A stretch of DNA of 64,000 nt from Halorubrum lipolyticum DSM 21995 (GTDB taxonomy: Archaea; Halobacteriota; Halobacteria; Halobacteriales; Haloferacaceae): contig NZ_AOJG01000034.1 in assembly GCF_000337375.1 (NCBI RefSeq), positions 1 through 64,000 on the forward strand, read 5' to 3'. Position numbers and translations under genes: made by a program. Positions 1,881 through 60,184 of this stretch are shown here, one piece after another. Each line of letters begins with the position of its first letter. Position 1 is the first letter of the stretch. Below the pieces are notes generated by a model, which was not told the origin of the DNA, searched no databases, and saw only the letters and a program-made list of their open reading frames with translations.

Positions 1881-4079
1881 ATGCGCTTCAGTCGCGACCG
1901 TCGGGGCCAGTCGGTCGTGATCGGGACGGTGATCCTGTTCGGTTTCCTGATTCTGGCGCTCTCGCTGTATCAGGTGCAGGTGGTGCCACAGGAGAACAGC
2001 GACATCGAGTTCGATCACAGCCAGCAGGTCGAGGGCGAATTCCTCGACCTGCGGAACGCGGTCTTGAGCGCGAGCCGCACCGGTGCCGGTCGATCGACCT
2101 CGTTGAAACTCGGAACGCGGTACCCACAGCGGACGTTCGCGCTGAACCCGCCGCCGGCCTCGGGCCAGTTATCGACGACCGACCCCCGTGAGCTGCGTAT
2201 CGAGAACGCCACGGTCGAGGGGGACGAGAACGTCGTCGCCTACTGGAACAATCGGACCGAGATGGACGACGCGATCGCGTTCGACACGCGCTCGCTGCGC
2301 TACTCGCCGGGGTACAACGAGTTTCGGAACGGTCCCGACCTCGTGTACGAGCACTCGCTCGTCGTCGCCGAGTTCGAGAATACGGTCCTCTCCCGGACCG
2401 GGCAGACCGCGGTGGACGGCGACAACCGGATTCGGCTGACCGCGCTGGACGGGAGCGTGGACGAGTCGGGCGTCGAACGGACGAGTCTGGATCCGGAGAC
2501 GCTCTCGCAGAGCCGGCGTTCGGTGACACTGAACTCGACCGGAAACGACCCGATCGTCCTCGAACTGCCGACCGACGTGTCGACAGAGCGGGCCGGGGAT
2601 CTTGAGTCAGAGTGGCGCGACCGACTTGGCGAAGACGATGCGACGATCGAGGATGTCACCGTCGCGGGCGGCACGGTTCGAGTCGAGCTTACCGGTTCAT
2701 CGACGTACCGCCTCGAGCTTGGCAAGGTCGGACTCGGAGCCGGTGCGACCGCAACCAACGAATCGAACGGGTACATTACGAAGGTCTCGACTGAGAACCA
2801 AGCCGCGGTCGCGGAGGTTCGTGATCAGTTCAACAACCCGGTAGCGGGGGCAGCAGTCCAAGTCAACGTCAGCGGAAACGTCTCCTCACGACTCACCGAC
2901 GACGACGGGCAGGTATCAGTCACACCGGAAGGAAGTCCGCGGGTGGATATGTCGATCAACGATGGTGCGGAGAACTGGGAAACAACCGTCTTTCAGGCTG
3001 GTACCGTCGGTAGCGGTAATAACGGTGACAGTATCAATCCAAGTGGGGAAACGGATGTGACGCTCACTGATGTCGGGTTGGATGGTAACGATGTTGCCCA
3101 GTTACAATTTAGAAACCAAGCGGATGAAGATAGAACGTTCCAATCGATGGAATTCACTCTGTACTACAGACCACAAGGAAACACTCGTGAGAATTTCAAT
3201 ATAACCGATCCCGGCGACGGGACTCAACGGTTAGAGCTCCGCAGTGGATTTCAGGAGCTCGAGACACCGATCAACATCCCCGCGGGTGCGACCAAAACGG
3301 TGACACTTGAGTTCGATAAGACCGTCAACGGTGACCTTCTCGGAGTTAGCTTCGAAGATGATCTCAACCGGCGATCATTGTATCTCGCGGGGCTTGAAGG
3401 AGAGATCGACCAACCAGATGGTGGCGGTGACGGCAGTACTAGTACCTCTGATATCGCAATGCGGGTTGACGATGTGACCCGAAGAAACACTGACAACCCG
3501 GAATTCTACGTGTCTTACGATACCGATGTCACATTTGACAATATAGAGGTATCTGCCACAAGTACGACATCAACCGCGAGCGACTCCATCTCGTCGACGG
3601 CCGGTCGCAATGGTGTCTTTCTGAGTCCCACTTTCGGGCAAGGACAAGAGTTTGAGATCACCGTGGAAGCACTGAACGGAGGTGAAGTCGTCGCTAATCG
3701 GACGATACTCACCACTGCCGACACGCAAAATCCGACTGAAAACGACGACCTCTCACAGGGAGGGAGTGCCGTTCTCGACTCATCAACGATACAAGATCGT
3801 ACTCAGACGAATCGCGATAATGTGAGGTATCGGTTCACGTACGACGTGTCTGAAAATGGACCCTTCTCCGAAGTGCAACTCTACGCACTCAACAGGAACA
3901 ATGACGGAGCGTCTGCGTCGGAAGCCCGCACAGGTCGGAGCGAAAATAATGTTGATGTGGAACCCGGCTTCGGTGCTAATACAGAATATAAACTCGCGAT
4001 ACTCGTCGTCGACGCAGATGGTGCCGTCATCGATGCCAGAATTATCGACGATCCTGCCGACGGCACCGATCCGGTTTGA
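1881..4079 (+). CDS. Large prepilin-like surface protein (DUF7289-like) with Ig-like segments
   Basis: The 732-residue product starts with a short basic stretch (RFSRDRRGQS) followed by one hydrophobic helix (residues about 13-30), the class III signal and pilin N-domain pattern of haloarchaeal pilin-like proteins. The next 250 residues (VEGEFLDLRNAVLSA, LGTRYPQRTF, LNPPPASG) match my recollection of the haloarchaeal DUF7289 architecture. Around residues 305-345 a segment containing NPVAGAAVQVNVSG resembles an Ig-like/Big_1 domain. The rest is Thr/Ser/Asn/Asp-rich with a Gly-Asp linker near residue 515. Most of the protein should be outside the cell. DNA from about 2.9 kb to the stop is clearly AT-richer than the first half, suggesting a variable or acquired 3' part. 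Confidence 0.75.
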   Translation: MRFSRDRRGQSVVIGTVILFGFLILALSLYQVQVVPQENSDIEFDHSQQVEGEFLDLRNAVLSASRTGAGRSTSLKLGTRYPQRTFALNPPPASGQLSTTDPRELRIENATVEGDENVVAYWNNRTEMDDAIAFDTRSLRYSPGYNEFRNGPDLVYEHSLVVAEFENTVLSRTGQTAVDGDNRIRLTALDGSVDESGVERTSLDPETLSQSRRSVTLNSTGNDPIVLELPTDVSTERAGDLESEWRDRLGEDDATIEDVTVAGGTVRVELTGSSTYRLELGKVGLGAGATATNESNGYITKVSTENQAAVAEVRDQFNNPVAGAAVQVNVSGNVSSRLTDDDGQVSVTPEGSPRVDMSINDGAENWETTVFQAGTVGSGNNGDSINPSGETDVTLTDVGLDGNDVAQLQFRNQADEDRTFQSMEFTLYYRPQGNTRENFNITDPGDGTQRLELRSGFQELETPINIPAGATKTVTLEFDKTVNGDLLGVSFEDDLNRRSLYLAGLEGEIDQPDGGGDGSTSTSDIAMRVDDVTRRNTDNPEFYVSYDTDVTFDNIEVSATSTTSTASDSISSTAGRNGVFLSPTFGQGQEFEITVEALNGGEVVANRTILTTADTQNPTENDDLSQGGSAVLDSSTIQDRTQTNRDNVRYRFTYDVSENGPFSEVQLYALNRNNDGASASEARTGRSENNVDVEPGFGANTEYKLAILVVDADGAVIDARIIDDPADGTDPV

Positions 4080-49873: not shown

Positions 49874-51142
49874 ATGCTGGAGACAACCCGCACCTATCGA
49901 GCGAAAATCGTCAATCACCAACAGGTGAGCGACGAGCTCGACCAGTGCGGGTTCTCCGCGTCGAAACTGTGGAACGTCGCCCGATACTACTCGCAAGGTC
50001 GATGGGATGAAGACGGGGAGATCCCCGACGACGGCGAACTCAAATCCGAACTCAAGGAACACGAACGATACAGTGACCTTCATTCTCAGTCAAGTCAGCG
50101 AGTTCTCGAAGAGCTTGCTGAGTCGTTCACCAGTTGGTACAAAGCGCGCCAACGCGGAGACGAGGACGCCAACCCACCCGGCTACCGCAAACACGGCGAC
50201 GAACACCCGCGCTCCACCGTGACGTGGAAGCAGAAGGGTATCAAGCACGATTCCAAACACAACCGACTCCGCCTGAGCAAGGGTTTCAACCTGAAGAATC
50301 ACCGTTCGGACTTCATTCTCGCAGAGTACGAGACGCGACCGGACGTGACCGTGGAGAACATCCAGCAAGTCCGAGCCGTCTGGAACGGCGACCGCTGGGA
50401 ACTCCACATCGTCTGCAAAGTTGAAATCCCCGTCGAGGACGCACCGGGCGACAACACGGCGGGCATCGACGTCGGCATCAAGAACTACCTCGCCATCGCC
50501 TACGACGACGGTGATGCCGAATTGTACCCCGGAAACGTGCTGAAACAGGACAAGCACTACTTCACTCGTGACGAGTACGACACCGAAGGCGAGAACGGCC
50601 CATCACGCGGTGCGCTTCGCGCCCGCCAGAAACTCTCGCGGCGGAAAGACCACTTTCTACACTCACTCGCCAAGCACATCGTTGAGCGGTGCATCGACCA
50701 CGAGGTTGGTCGCATCGCCATCGGTGAGTTGAGTGAGATTCGTGAAGACGAGAACGGTGACTCACGGAACTGGGGCAAGCAGGGGAACAAGAAACTCCAC
50801 GGATGGGAGTTCGACCGGTTCACCATGTTGCTGGAATATAAGGCCGAAGAACACGGCATCGTCGTAGACCGCAAGAGCGAGCGAGACACGTCAAAGACGT
50901 GTTCGTGCTGTGGGCGGAAGCGTGACGCGAATCGCGTGGAGCGTGGCTTGTACGTCTGTGAATCGTGCGGAGCGACGATGAACGCAGACGTGAACGGTGC
51001 AGTGAACATTCGCAGAAAGATAACTCAGAATCCTCCGACGGAGGATATGAGTAACGGTCGTTTGGCACGGCCAGTAGCCTACCTGTTCAACCAAACCTCT
51101 GGGTCGTTCCACCCGAGGGAGCAGGTAGGTTGTAAACCGTAA
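49874..51142 (+). CDS. tnpB: TnpB RNA-guided nuclease, element 1
   Basis: The 422-residue protein has an N-terminal OrfB helix-turn-helix-like/wedge region, the RuvC-like catalytic residues Asp199 (GIDVGIKN), Glu285 (IAIGELSEI) and Asp372 (NADVNGAVN), and a zinc ribbon between (CSCC at 343-346, CESC at 362-365). All three acids are present, so it should be an active nuclease guided by an RNA from the element's 3' end (family knowledge). It is acidic for a TnpB, as expected in a halophile. Codon use is slightly less GC-biased than the neighbours. Confidence 0.93.
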   Translation: MLETTRTYRAKIVNHQQVSDELDQCGFSASKLWNVARYYSQGRWDEDGEIPDDGELKSELKEHERYSDLHSQSSQRVLEELAESFTSWYKARQRGDEDANPPGYRKHGDEHPRSTVTWKQKGIKHDSKHNRLRLSKGFNLKNHRSDFILAEYETRPDVTVENIQQVRAVWNGDRWELHIVCKVEIPVEDAPGDNTAGIDVGIKNYLAIAYDDGDAELYPGNVLKQDKHYFTRDEYDTEGENGPSRGALRARQKLSRRKDHFLHSLAKHIVERCIDHEVGRIAIGELSEIREDENGDSRNWGKQGNKKLHGWEFDRFTMLLEYKAEEHGIVVDRKSERDTSKTCSCCGRKRDANRVERGLYVCESCGATMNADVNGAVNIRRKITQNPPTEDMSNGRLARPVAYLFNQTSGSFHPREQVGCKP

Positions 51143-57645: not shown

Positions 57646-57706
57646 AGAGAACCCCCAAGGCGGATACCACGCCCTTCAGGGTGTGGAGGAATCCGACAAC
57701 GCGGCG

Positions 57707-57853
57707 TCAGTCCTCGTCCAGTGGCCCGCCGGAATCCAACCCCCGCGTTCCCCTGAGCAAGAGACCTTTCCACGTCAGACCGTGTGCGTCTTTCAGTTCG
57801 CTCACTCGCTCGTACTGTTCCTCGTCCTCGAACTCTATCTTTACGTACCTCAC
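57707..57853 (-). CDS. Small ribbon-helix-helix-like protein of TnpB element 2
   Basis: A 48-residue GTG-start ORF divergent from tnpB. The sequence reads as strand YVKIEFE, helix DEEQYERVSELKDAHG, turn, helix TWKGLLLRGTRGL, the order of CopG/Arc-type RHH DNA-binding proteins, then an acidic tail. CATTTA at 57877-57882 gives a TATA box 27 bases upstream, so it would be leaderless. It probably binds the element's left end and controls tnpB (inference). The frame continues upstream, but that part overlaps tnpB. Confidence 0.6.
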   Translation of the reverse strand: MRYVKIEFEDEEQYERVSELKDAHGLTWKGLLLRGTRGLDSGGPLDED

Positions 57854-57908
57854 ACATATTTGTAACACTTCCGTTGCATTTACGCCTCTCGGTATTGTAC
57901 TGTGAATC

Positions 57909-59141
57909 GTGACCGCCACCGCCACGAAAACGCTCGAAGCAACGCTCGCGCCACCGACGGCGCACAAAGAGCGCCGGCTTCAGCGTACTGTGGCGACGTA
58001 CCGCCGCGCTCTCTCGGAGTCCTTCGAGAGTGGCGCGGACACGCAGACAGCGGTCAACGATGTCGTCACCGGCTACACGCTCACATCCTACGCCAAAGAC
58101 GCGCTCAAGAACTACGTCCCGCAACTCCGCCGGACGTACAACGCCTCCGAATTGGACGACGACCACCCCGTTCGGTTCACGAACCGGGGGTGGCGTCTCG
58201 ACCACTCTGAGGACAGAACGCACGAGTTCTGTTGGCGCGTCCCGCAGGCCGGGCGTGGCAATGCCTTCTGGATTCCGCTCCGTATCAACCCCGAACAACG
58301 GGAGTTGTGGGGGGAGTTGTTCGACGGCGAAGTGACGGTCGGAGAGTTCCGACTGCAAGAACACCGCACCAACTGGGTGCTTCACGTCACCGTCGAATAC
58401 GCGGTCGCGGAACCAGAGGAGTCGGACGACCCGACGCCGGTCGGTTTCGACATCGGTGAATCCAAACTCCTGACGGGCTGTGCCTGTCAGGACGATACTC
58501 CAACCCAACCGTACATCTACGACGGCGGACGCGCCCGCCAGCTCCGCAAAGAGATGTTCACGACCCTCCGCCGTCTCCAACAGCGCGACGCCGCCGAGTG
58601 GCGCGTGGACGAACGATTCAACCACTATCAGAACGCTCTCACGGACATCGTGGAGAAGGCGTCTCGGCAGGCCGTCGAGTACGCCAGTTCCTTCGAGAAC
58701 CCCGTTATCGTTCTTGAAGACCTGTCGTACATCCGCGAACATCTCGACTATGGAAAGTGGATGAACCGCCGTCTCCACAACTGGGCGTTTGCTCGTCTCA
58801 CCGGACGCATCGAGGACAAAGCCCGCGACGCGGGGATTCCAGTCCGGTTCGTGAATCCCGCGTACACCAGTCAGACGTGCCACGCCTGCGGCCACCTCGG
58901 TTCTCGAAACTCGCAGGCGGCGTTCCGATGCACGAATGCAGAGTGTTGGGTGACGGAGTACCAAGCGGACATCAACGCGGCGGCCAATATCGCCGGTCGC
59001 CTCAATCCGTGGGGAGAGAGCCTGTCGCTGAAAACGACGGGCGATGACTCGCCACGGGACGGGAGCACCCTTGACAGTGCCACAGCCCACTCCGGGCCGA
59101 GTGCGAAACTCGCACAGACGACGCTCGGAGAGTGGGGCTGA
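57909..59141 (+). CDS. tnpB: TnpB RNA-guided nuclease, element 2
   Basis: The 410-residue protein starts at a GTG. RuvC-like acids are Asp181 (VGFDIGESK), Glu270 (VIVLEDLSYIRE) and Asp354 (YQADINAAANIAG), with a zinc ribbon (CHAC at 324-327; Cys341 and Cys346). The motif spacing is complete and no frameshift is seen, so it should be active. It is a different TnpB lineage from element 1 (little identity outside motifs) yet uses the same type of ends. The C-terminal 45 residues (SLSLKTTGDDSPRDGSTLDS) look disordered and probably overlap the guide RNA gene. Confidence 0.9.
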   Translation: MTATATKTLEATLAPPTAHKERRLQRTVATYRRALSESFESGADTQTAVNDVVTGYTLTSYAKDALKNYVPQLRRTYNASELDDDHPVRFTNRGWRLDHSEDRTHEFCWRVPQAGRGNAFWIPLRINPEQRELWGELFDGEVTVGEFRLQEHRTNWVLHVTVEYAVAEPEESDDPTPVGFDIGESKLLTGCACQDDTPTQPYIYDGGRARQLRKEMFTTLRRLQQRDAAEWRVDERFNHYQNALTDIVEKASRQAVEYASSFENPVIVLEDLSYIREHLDYGKWMNRRLHNWAFARLTGRIEDKARDAGIPVRFVNPAYTSQTCHACGHLGSRNSQAAFRCTNAECWVTEYQADINAAANIAGRLNPWGESLSLKTTGDDSPRDGSTLDSATAHSGPSAKLAQTTLGEWG

Positions 59142-59216
59142 AACCCCTCCGGTAGCAGACCCGGATTCCCCCTGTGCGGAGGATTCCCCTGCCTTCAGGC
59201 AGGTGGAGGATGTCAA
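58990..59216 (+). ncRNA. Predicted omega/sotRNA of element 2
   Basis: The 3' end of tnpB and the right-end hairpin up to TCAA would form the scaffold. The guide would run into the chromosomal bases after 59216, which are the 3' end of the isomerase gene. Extent is inferred, not seen. Confidence 0.4.
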
Positions 59217-60184
59217 GGCTCGGCCCACGGCTCTTCGGCGCCCTCGCCGAACAGCTCCCGCATCAGCGCGACGATGCTCTCGGGCGGGAACTGGCCGTGT
59301 TCGGTGACGATCGCGTCCATGTACCGCGGCGGCGTCACGTCGAACGCCGGGTTCTCGACCGCGATCTCGCCGATCTGTTCGCGGCTCTCGGCGTCGATCA
59401 CCTCGCTCTCGGAACGCATCTCGATCTCGACGGTGTGGCCCGTCAGCGTCTCCGGGTGGAGCTTGATCGTCTGGGCGGCGGTCATGATCGGAACGCCGCG
59501 CTCGCGGGCGTTGACCGCCAGCCCCGAGGTGCCGATCTTGTTGATCACGCCGCCGTCGGCGGCGATCGAGTCGGCGCCGACGACGACGTGGTCGACCTCG
59601 TCGAGGTAGCGCCGCGCCGCGGAGTCGACGATCAGGGTGACGGGGACGCCCGCCTCGCGGAGCTGTTCGGCGGTGATGTGGCCCTGCTGGCGCGGGCGCG
59701 TCTCCTTGACGACCGCCGAGATCGACTTCCCCTGTTCGACGGCCGCCTCGATGCACGCCAAGGCGTCCGTCGAGTGGCAGTGGGTCATCACCGTGTCGCC
59801 GTCGGCGAGGCGGTTCGCCCCGACCTGCCCGAGGTCGTCCTGCGCGCGGTCGAGCTGGCGGACGAACGCGTCGCTCGCGTCGACGACGCTGCGGCGCAGC
59901 TCGTCGACCGTCTGGCCTTCCATCCGCTGGAGGACGTAGCGGAGGGCGTTCGGCAGCGACACGGCGGTCGGGCGGGTCTCGCGGAGGGTTCGGGCCGCGG
60001 CGCGCATCGACGCGCGGAAGGCGGCGGGGTCGCTCGCGGTCTCGCCGGACGCGGCCGCGGCCTCGGCCTGCTCGGCGAGCGCCTCCGCGGCCGCGGAGGC
60101 GATGGTCGCCGCGCCGCGGACCTCCATCGTCGCGATCTCCTCGGCGGTCTCCCGGACCGGGGCCGCCGGCTCCGTATCTGTCAT
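59213..60184 (-). CDS. Ribose-1,5-bisphosphate isomerase
   Basis: The 323-residue eIF2B-fold enzyme converts ribose-1,5-bisphosphate to ribulose-1,5-bisphosphate. R15P-isomerase signs are the N-terminal IATMEVRGAATIASAAAEAL, MTHCHSTDALACIEAA with Cys136 as the catalytic Cys, and VVVGADSIAADGGVINKIGT with Asp205. Both residues are missing from the paralogue at 21.8-22.6 kb. A TATA box at 60209-60217 lies 29 bases upstream. The stop codon lies within the right end of TnpB element 2. With the neighbouring aldolase and HAD genes it fits the non-carboxylating pentose bisphosphate pathway. Confidence 0.92.
   Translation of the reverse strand: MTDTEPAAPVRETAEEIATMEVRGAATIASAAAEALAEQAEAAAASGETASDPAAFRASMRAAARTLRETRPTAVSLPNALRYVLQRMEGQTVDELRRSVVDASDAFVRQLDRAQDDLGQVGANRLADGDTVMTHCHSTDALACIEAAVEQGKSISAVVKETRPRQQGHITAEQLREAGVPVTLIVDSAARRYLDEVDHVVVGADSIAADGGVINKIGTSGLAVNARERGVPIMTAAQTIKLHPETLTGHTVEIEMRSESEVIDAESREQIGEIAVENPAFDVTPPRYMDAIVTEHGQFPPESIVALMRELFGEGAEEPWAEP

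Follow-up and report, generated by a model that had tools for sequence, protein, structure and literature searches.

A very small gene, carried inside a tnpB element of Halorubrum lipolyticum DSM 21995 and read divergently from tnpB, probably encodes an autoregulatory ribbon-helix-helix (RHH) repressor that controls both itself and tnpB at a shared bidirectional promoter. The sequence analysed (the window) is a stretch of 64,000 nucleotides, positions 1 to 64,000 of contig NZ_AOJG01000034.1. The small open reading frame, here called the micro-gene, is a real and conserved protein gene, far beyond chance expectation, as follows from its conserved family, its fixed geometry and its coding signature. 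An autoregulatory RHH repressor predicts conserved repeats spaced by 11 bp that co-vary with the N-terminal strand of the protein. Both are found among the relatives, so the suggestion of the first-pass annotation that the element encodes its own repressor is supported; repression of tnpB and the setting of its dose would be the consequences.

The element and its genes

The features of the element are listed in Table 1. The micro-gene has a GTG start and 48 codons followed by a stop, and translation of the minus strand from 57853 to 57707 gives the product VRYVKIEFEDEEQYERVSELKDAHGLTWKGLLLRGTRGLDSGGPLDED. Its placement on the minus strand, between the left-end boxes and tnpB, is as first described, and so are the positions and order of the boxes. 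The neighbouring gene is identified as TnpB by NCBIfam model NF040570, with 138.7 bits against a cut-off of 100. Neither the sequence nor the list of open reading frames has a tnpA frame between the element ends, so the element is IS1341-like and not a complete IS605. Within the element, no gene comes after the micro-gene. The other element that had been noted in the window (tnpB near 49874-51140) was said to lack the micro-ORF, and a frame of this kind is indeed absent from its 5' side; the whole host genome has eight tnpB matches versus a single copy of the micro-ORF.

Table 1. Features of the tnpB element that carries the micro-gene.
Feature	Position	Strand	Basis
Micro-regulator gene, 48 aa, predicted RHH-like	57707..57853	(-)	translation, relatives, purifying selection, fold
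tnpB, 410 aa, GTG start, RNA-guided endonuclease family	57909..59141	(+)	NF040570; Pfam PF07282
IS605-type left end with its boxes and palindrome, just past the micro-gene stop; in order CAAGGC (57656-57661), palindrome CCACGCCCTTCAGGGTGTGG (57667-57686), CCGACAAC (57693-57700)	57656..57702	(+)	by eye
Element right end	59142..59219	(+)	by eye; homology to relatives stops near 59219
TATA-like element GCATTTACG / CGTAAATGC	57876..57884	none	sequence; spacers of relatives
Putative operator, imperfect direct repeat TGCAAC-N5-TGTTAC, 11 bp apart	57862..57878	(-)	sequence; 11-bp enrichment in relatives

A conserved gene family

Among 293 genomes searched in this order, 112 have a relative of the micro-gene, spread over 51 of 87 genera. 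Natrinema pellirubrum and Haloferax larsenii are examples of carriers. A phylum-wide search placed almost all matches within this same order, and the figure from a class-wide profile search is 81 of 194. Several relatives with the identical start are annotated in RefSeq as 'hypothetical protein' (WP_006181042.1, WP_197407743.1 and WP_255647816.1). No relatives were found in phage records; three loci are on viral contigs.

Among 98 distinct loci (662 pairs), pN is 0.065 and pS is 0.527, a pN/pS of approximately 0.12, with pN below pS in 41 out of 41 disjoint pairs. Substitutions at the three codon positions number 99, 55 and 366. This is strong evidence that the micro-gene is under purifying selection, and a chance or antisense ORF is ruled out by the pN/pS and the third-position changes. 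It is likewise highly improbable that the region is not a gene at all and owes its conservation to a role as promoter, left-end DNA or antisense RNA. The ORF is short, antisense and adjoins the DNA of the element end, as such a region might, but the dominance of third-position substitutions, the pN/pS of 0.12 and the RefSeq genes with identical starts in several relatives all speak against this.

The window micro-protein is not recognised by any Pfam, NCBIfam or PHROG model, even at E=10, and a sequence profile search of the PDB found nothing meaningful. For the relatives, the curated RHH models stay below threshold, the best being ParD (E=0.01) and RHH_1 (E=0.099). A match to a curated RHH sequence model is a usual aid to recognition and does not itself define the fold. 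Five residues are invariant in 52 sequences: K21, G25, T27, W28 and G30.

Predicted fold

The AlphaFold2 model built from 52 sequences has a mean pLDDT of 88.7. Residues 1-10 are predicted to be extended, followed by helices at 11-23 and 28-40 and a loose tail; residues 41-48 at the C-terminus are of low confidence (pLDDT around 60), and there is almost no tail after helix 2. The N-terminal strand is unpaired in this monomer model. A strand and then two helices within about 45 residues is the order that typifies the RHH superfamily, and the predicted monomer thus has the strand-helix-helix topology of CopG and Arc that the first-pass annotation had read from the peptide.

A Foldseek search of the PDB returned eight chains, these being CopG (4), DinJ (2), CdbA and a designed beta-alpha-alpha peptide, at a TM of about 0.6 and with poor E-values. 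Arc is added by VIA-align, which gives Z scores of 4.8-5.4 to DinJ, CopG and Arc, the best solved matches, and of 4.1-5.4 when CdbA is included. All of the solved-structure matches are therefore RHH or RHH-like, and the weakness of their E-values can be attributed to a length of only 48 residues. Together, the model and these matches are good evidence for an RHH-like predicted fold, which speaks to the fold of the micro-protein and not to its function.

Association and movement with tnpB

Homologues beside other haloarchaeal tnpB genes, which had been proposed as a check on the micro-gene, are readily found. Among 141 relative loci fetched, all retrieved through the micro-protein rather than through tnpB and some of them fetched twice, 124 have a divergent tnpB. 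The partner tnpBs fall into two clades (T2 and one other) with a mutual identity of only about 25%. In both clades the distance from start to start is 51-59 nt in all but a few loci, and over the divergent pairs as a whole it is usually 49-59 nt. Most loci without a divergent tnpB are remnants, lie at the end of a contig, or have a two-domain relative that faces a membrane-protein operon. In L082, L087, L089, L091, L095, L105, L110 and L138, relatives that are mostly double-domain face such an operon, plasmid- or virus-like in character, with no tnpB. The L089 contig, which has a haloarchaeal two-domain relative and the operon, is binned as a Thermomicrobiaceae metagenome and is probably mis-binned.

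Three copies are present in Haloterrigena sp. H1 (L088, L101 and L111). These share a common 1.6-kb block containing both genes, have unrelated flanks, and remain conserved for about 75 nt beyond the micro-ORF stop, where the similarity ends. Since the block is common and the flanks differ, the micro-gene belongs to the mobile unit, and in these relatives it moves jointly with tnpB. As judged by eye, nearly all of approximately 36 tnpBs that are at least 72% identical to the window tnpB are accompanied by the micro-gene. Taking all tnpBs together, only a minority have it: in 16 carrier genomes there are about 38 strong micro-genes versus 283 tnpB matches.

Some copies have an incomplete partner or none. 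A 330-bp stretch of L064 (approximately 2889-3217), 97.6% identical to L062, contains the left end, the micro-gene and the promoter without tnpB, and is a terminal-only derivative that has retained the micro-gene. At L003/L150 an intact micro-gene accompanies a damaged tnpB that matches only to residue 181, and at L026 an intact micro-gene lies beside a frame-shifted tnpB.

The equivalent slot in sister elements

The 5' sides of 20 T2-clade tnpBs without the micro-gene were compared. In many of these, tnpA (Y1_Tnp, Pfam E 1e-40) is directly upstream on the same strand, as in L184 and L188. Seven of the 20 have a different micro-ORF, about 47 codons long, whose frame overlaps the start of tnpB (VRTEIDMERGNDLHERVKEYARDNGIRHPRAYAELIEKGLDASDNDN and relatives). 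This overlap is seen in L192, L194, L195, L196, L199, L202 and L203 (VRTEIDMERGNDLHERVKEYARDNGIRHPRAYAELIEKGLD). The second micro-ORF family is frequent and unrelated to the first, and in L204-L220 it likewise precedes a T2-like tnpB in the same orientation. Its distant relatives are found beside other tnpB types, co-directional in L222, L224 and L227 and divergent in L230 and L248. Further RHH-like micro-ORFs were seen in L222, L224, L225, L227, L230, L248 and L251, co-directional (MAERNLRVRLSDEDMDRAKAYAEANGLRMPRAYAELIRAGLDASPES, MVTTRKNISIRDDQEEWIQENHLNLSSFVQEKLDELIEERDS) or divergent (MRPAIDLSYGLHGRLKDYAEANDLELSEAYAEVLEAGLEALETQDQQ). By eye, the second-family micro-ORFs look to be of strand-helix-helix order; none of them reaches a Pfam cut-off.

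The promoter and putative operator

The micro-gene had been credited with a TATA box of its own. This is probably not so, as the sole TATA-like element is 26-30 nt away from either start and would serve both strands; in the window, where the spacer between the two genes is 55 bp long, its distance is about 27 nt to the micro-gene start and about 30 nt to that of tnpB. Of 78 relative spacers, 71 have a TATA-like hexamer whose centre is 25-31 nt away from each of the two starts, compared with 31% of shuffled spacers. The median distance from the TATA centre to the micro-gene start is 28.5 nt in the T2 clade and 25.5 nt in the other clade, and to the tnpB start it is 27.5 nt and 28.5 nt, respectively. 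The simplest reading is that a single TATA would be common to two leaderless genes in both directions, the leaderless transcription of the micro-gene being suggested by the spacing from TATA to start.

Many spacers have, on the micro-gene side of the TATA and before the start of that gene, direct repeats spaced by exactly 11 bp; such repeats occur in roughly half of the spacer types. Examples are CGTAAC-TAATA-CGTAAC (L016), ACTAAC-GAATC-ACTAAG (L022), ATCTAT-GTTTT-ATCTAT (L063) and GGGTAT-AGTAT-GGGTAT (L130). In the window the halves are at 57873-57878 and 57862-57867 on the minus strand, TGCAAC-GGAAG-TGTTAC, with 4/6 identity. Across 36 spacers less than 75% identical, lag 11 has a z of 5.8 and is the only one of lags 7-25 to stand out. 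On 14 dissimilar spacer consensuses its z is 4.0, and 7 of the 14 match at 5/6 or better, against 0-3 at other lags. The consensus of the commonest spacer type, EVRIEF, has no clear lag-11 repeat. Inverted repeats show a weak and scattered excess (z no higher than 3.5 at gaps 9, 11 and 13). An excess of lag-6 matches in the relatives' spacers (z 4.4) perhaps comes from the TATA region.

Joint variation of the strand and the operator

In RHH proteins, it is the strand that reads bases. Among the relatives, the repeat sequence and the N-terminal strand of the micro-protein change jointly while tnpB and the helices stay conserved. With the helices and the tnpB 5' DNA controlled for, the partial correlation between spacer and strand distances is 0.63 in the T2 clade (38 loci) and 0.39 in the other (21 loci), with a permutation p of 0.002; the helices also contribute to spacer distance (0.51 and 0.47). 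In pairs of loci alike in both the tnpB 5' end and the helices, spacer identity is 77.5% where the strand is the same (91 pairs). It is 39.8% where the strand is different (31 non-independent pairs, those listed being of the KYVKIEF type versus the PHINFEV and KNINIEV types), against a background of 40.7%. The clearest pair is L036 and L104, with strand residues KYVKIEF and PHINFEV, which are 88% identical in TnpB, 96% in the helices and 88% on the tnpB side, versus 39% in the spacer.

This co-variation agrees with a sequence-specific contact to DNA that the strand would make. Because the strand and the operator are adjacent on the DNA, a single recombination patch over both could produce the same pattern, and would itself be a specificity swap.

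Proposed mechanism and alternatives

In the mechanism proposed here, the RHH micro-protein of a tnpA-less IS605-type (IS1341-like) tnpB element would be transcribed divergently from tnpB, probably leaderless and from one TATA for both strands. A dimer or dimer pair would form, its antiparallel N-terminal strands entering tandem half-sites 11 bp apart. These half-sites would lie on the micro-gene side of the shared TATA, ahead of the micro-gene start, and, seen from tnpB, would abut the upstream (BRE/TFB) side of the TATA. Once bound, the micro-protein would repress rather than activate, blocking initiation of both its own gene and tnpB and so keeping the nuclease at a self-limiting low dose. 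It might also act in trans on sister copies that have an identical operator. Strict exclusion of same-specificity copies from a genome is not supported. Copies of the same type coexist (L088/L101/L111, L042/L044 and L054/L057), thus any control in trans would not be absolute exclusion.

Other roles can be envisaged for such a protein. An RHH factor for transposition, which binds the element end and directs or limits TnpA in trans without a part in transcription, would fit a gene that lies between the left end and tnpB and is mobile with the element. The presence of tnpA in the equivalent slot of sister tnpBs would then mean that the micro-gene replaces a transposition gene. This is nonetheless unlikely, as the spacing is fixed relative to both starts and the four subfamily repeat motifs have 77 matches in promoter spacers against one in the left ends (80 nt past the micro-gene stop). 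Their location in the spacer and not the left end favours a promoter role. There is little reason to favour an antitoxin-like partner which, in addition to its promoter role, restrains TnpB directly or is one member of a pair resembling a toxin-antitoxin system. Many toxin-antitoxin pairs do have an RHH protein as antitoxin, DinJ is the top solved match and ParD the best sub-threshold RHH model of Pfam. However, RHH antitoxins usually hold the toxin by a C-terminal tail, of which almost nothing follows helix 2 here; the genes are divergent rather than in one operon; and identical helices pair with tnpBs that are about 25% identical. The micro-gene therefore has neither the toxin-binding tail nor the operon with a toxin that would place it among type II antitoxins.

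An activator, or a switch that chooses the direction of the shared promoter, could favour tnpB while silencing the micro-gene from a site that is flanked by the TATA and the micro-gene start and adjoins the BRE side of the TATA used by tnpB. Most small RHH proteins from mobile elements act as repressors, and nothing specific to activation was found, which makes this role improbable too. Repression of both genes from the shared promoter is thus retained as the likely function of the micro-protein. A broader and more tentative idea, possible yet on the doubtful side, is that the unrelated micro-RHH families in the tnpA slot act as a phage-like immunity. They would check tnpB and themselves, in the first family through one bidirectional promoter, and switch strand and operator jointly. 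Through repeated switching of specificity, compatible elements might coexist in a genome, each with its own copy control.

Relation to known systems

Haloarchaeal elements of the IS605 and IS1341 types likewise have tnpB with left- and right-end palindromes, and many of their tnpBs are without tnpA. RHH autoregulators of mobile elements are already known. A search of the open-access literature, with subscription papers mostly outside its scope, found no description of an RHH micro-gene as a fixed part of a TnpB element. In the parts of their paper considered here, Dyall-Smith et al. (2011; PMC3119063) report that haloarchaeal tnpB elements are very diverse, low in copy number and mostly devoid of tnpA; they also infer that copy number is under stringent control, for which those parts give no mechanism. 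The elements described there have tnpA and tnpB only, with no self-encoded RHH regulator among them.

The micro-protein is a candidate mechanism for this low copy number. Haloarchaea have dozens of very diverse tnpB elements with few copies of each. A self-encoded micro-repressor whose operator can be read from sequence makes the question of copy control directly testable. If the proposed mechanism is true, it would amount to a natural brake on transcription of an RNA-guided nuclease gene, and the existing strand-operator pairs, themselves natural, might show how DNA specificity shifts in RHH proteins.

The closest parallel is CopG, the 45-aa RHH copy-number repressor of plasmid pMV158, which is similar in size, in strand-helix-helix order and in carriage by a mobile element, and resembles the autorepression proposed for the micro-protein. 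The predicted fold matches CopG over 42-44 residues (TM 0.62-0.65, Z 4.8-5.0) at 14% identity. The copG gene is in an operon with repB, whereas the micro-gene is divergent from an RNA-guided nuclease gene and its product is a presumed DNA-binding protein. The Arc repressor of phage P22, a fold match over 40 residues (Z 4.8) at 12% identity, has tandem operator half-sites separated by roughly one helical turn; it is a phage regulator without a link to TnpB. The RHH antitoxins DinJ and ParD have the RHH N-terminal domain in common with the micro-protein which, unlike them, has no toxin-binding tail and no adjacent toxin, tnpB being in the partner position. TldR proteins, nuclease-dead repressors derived from TnpB and guided by RNA, are similarly regulators in a TnpB context, but here the regulator would be a separate RHH protein and tnpB is apparently intact.
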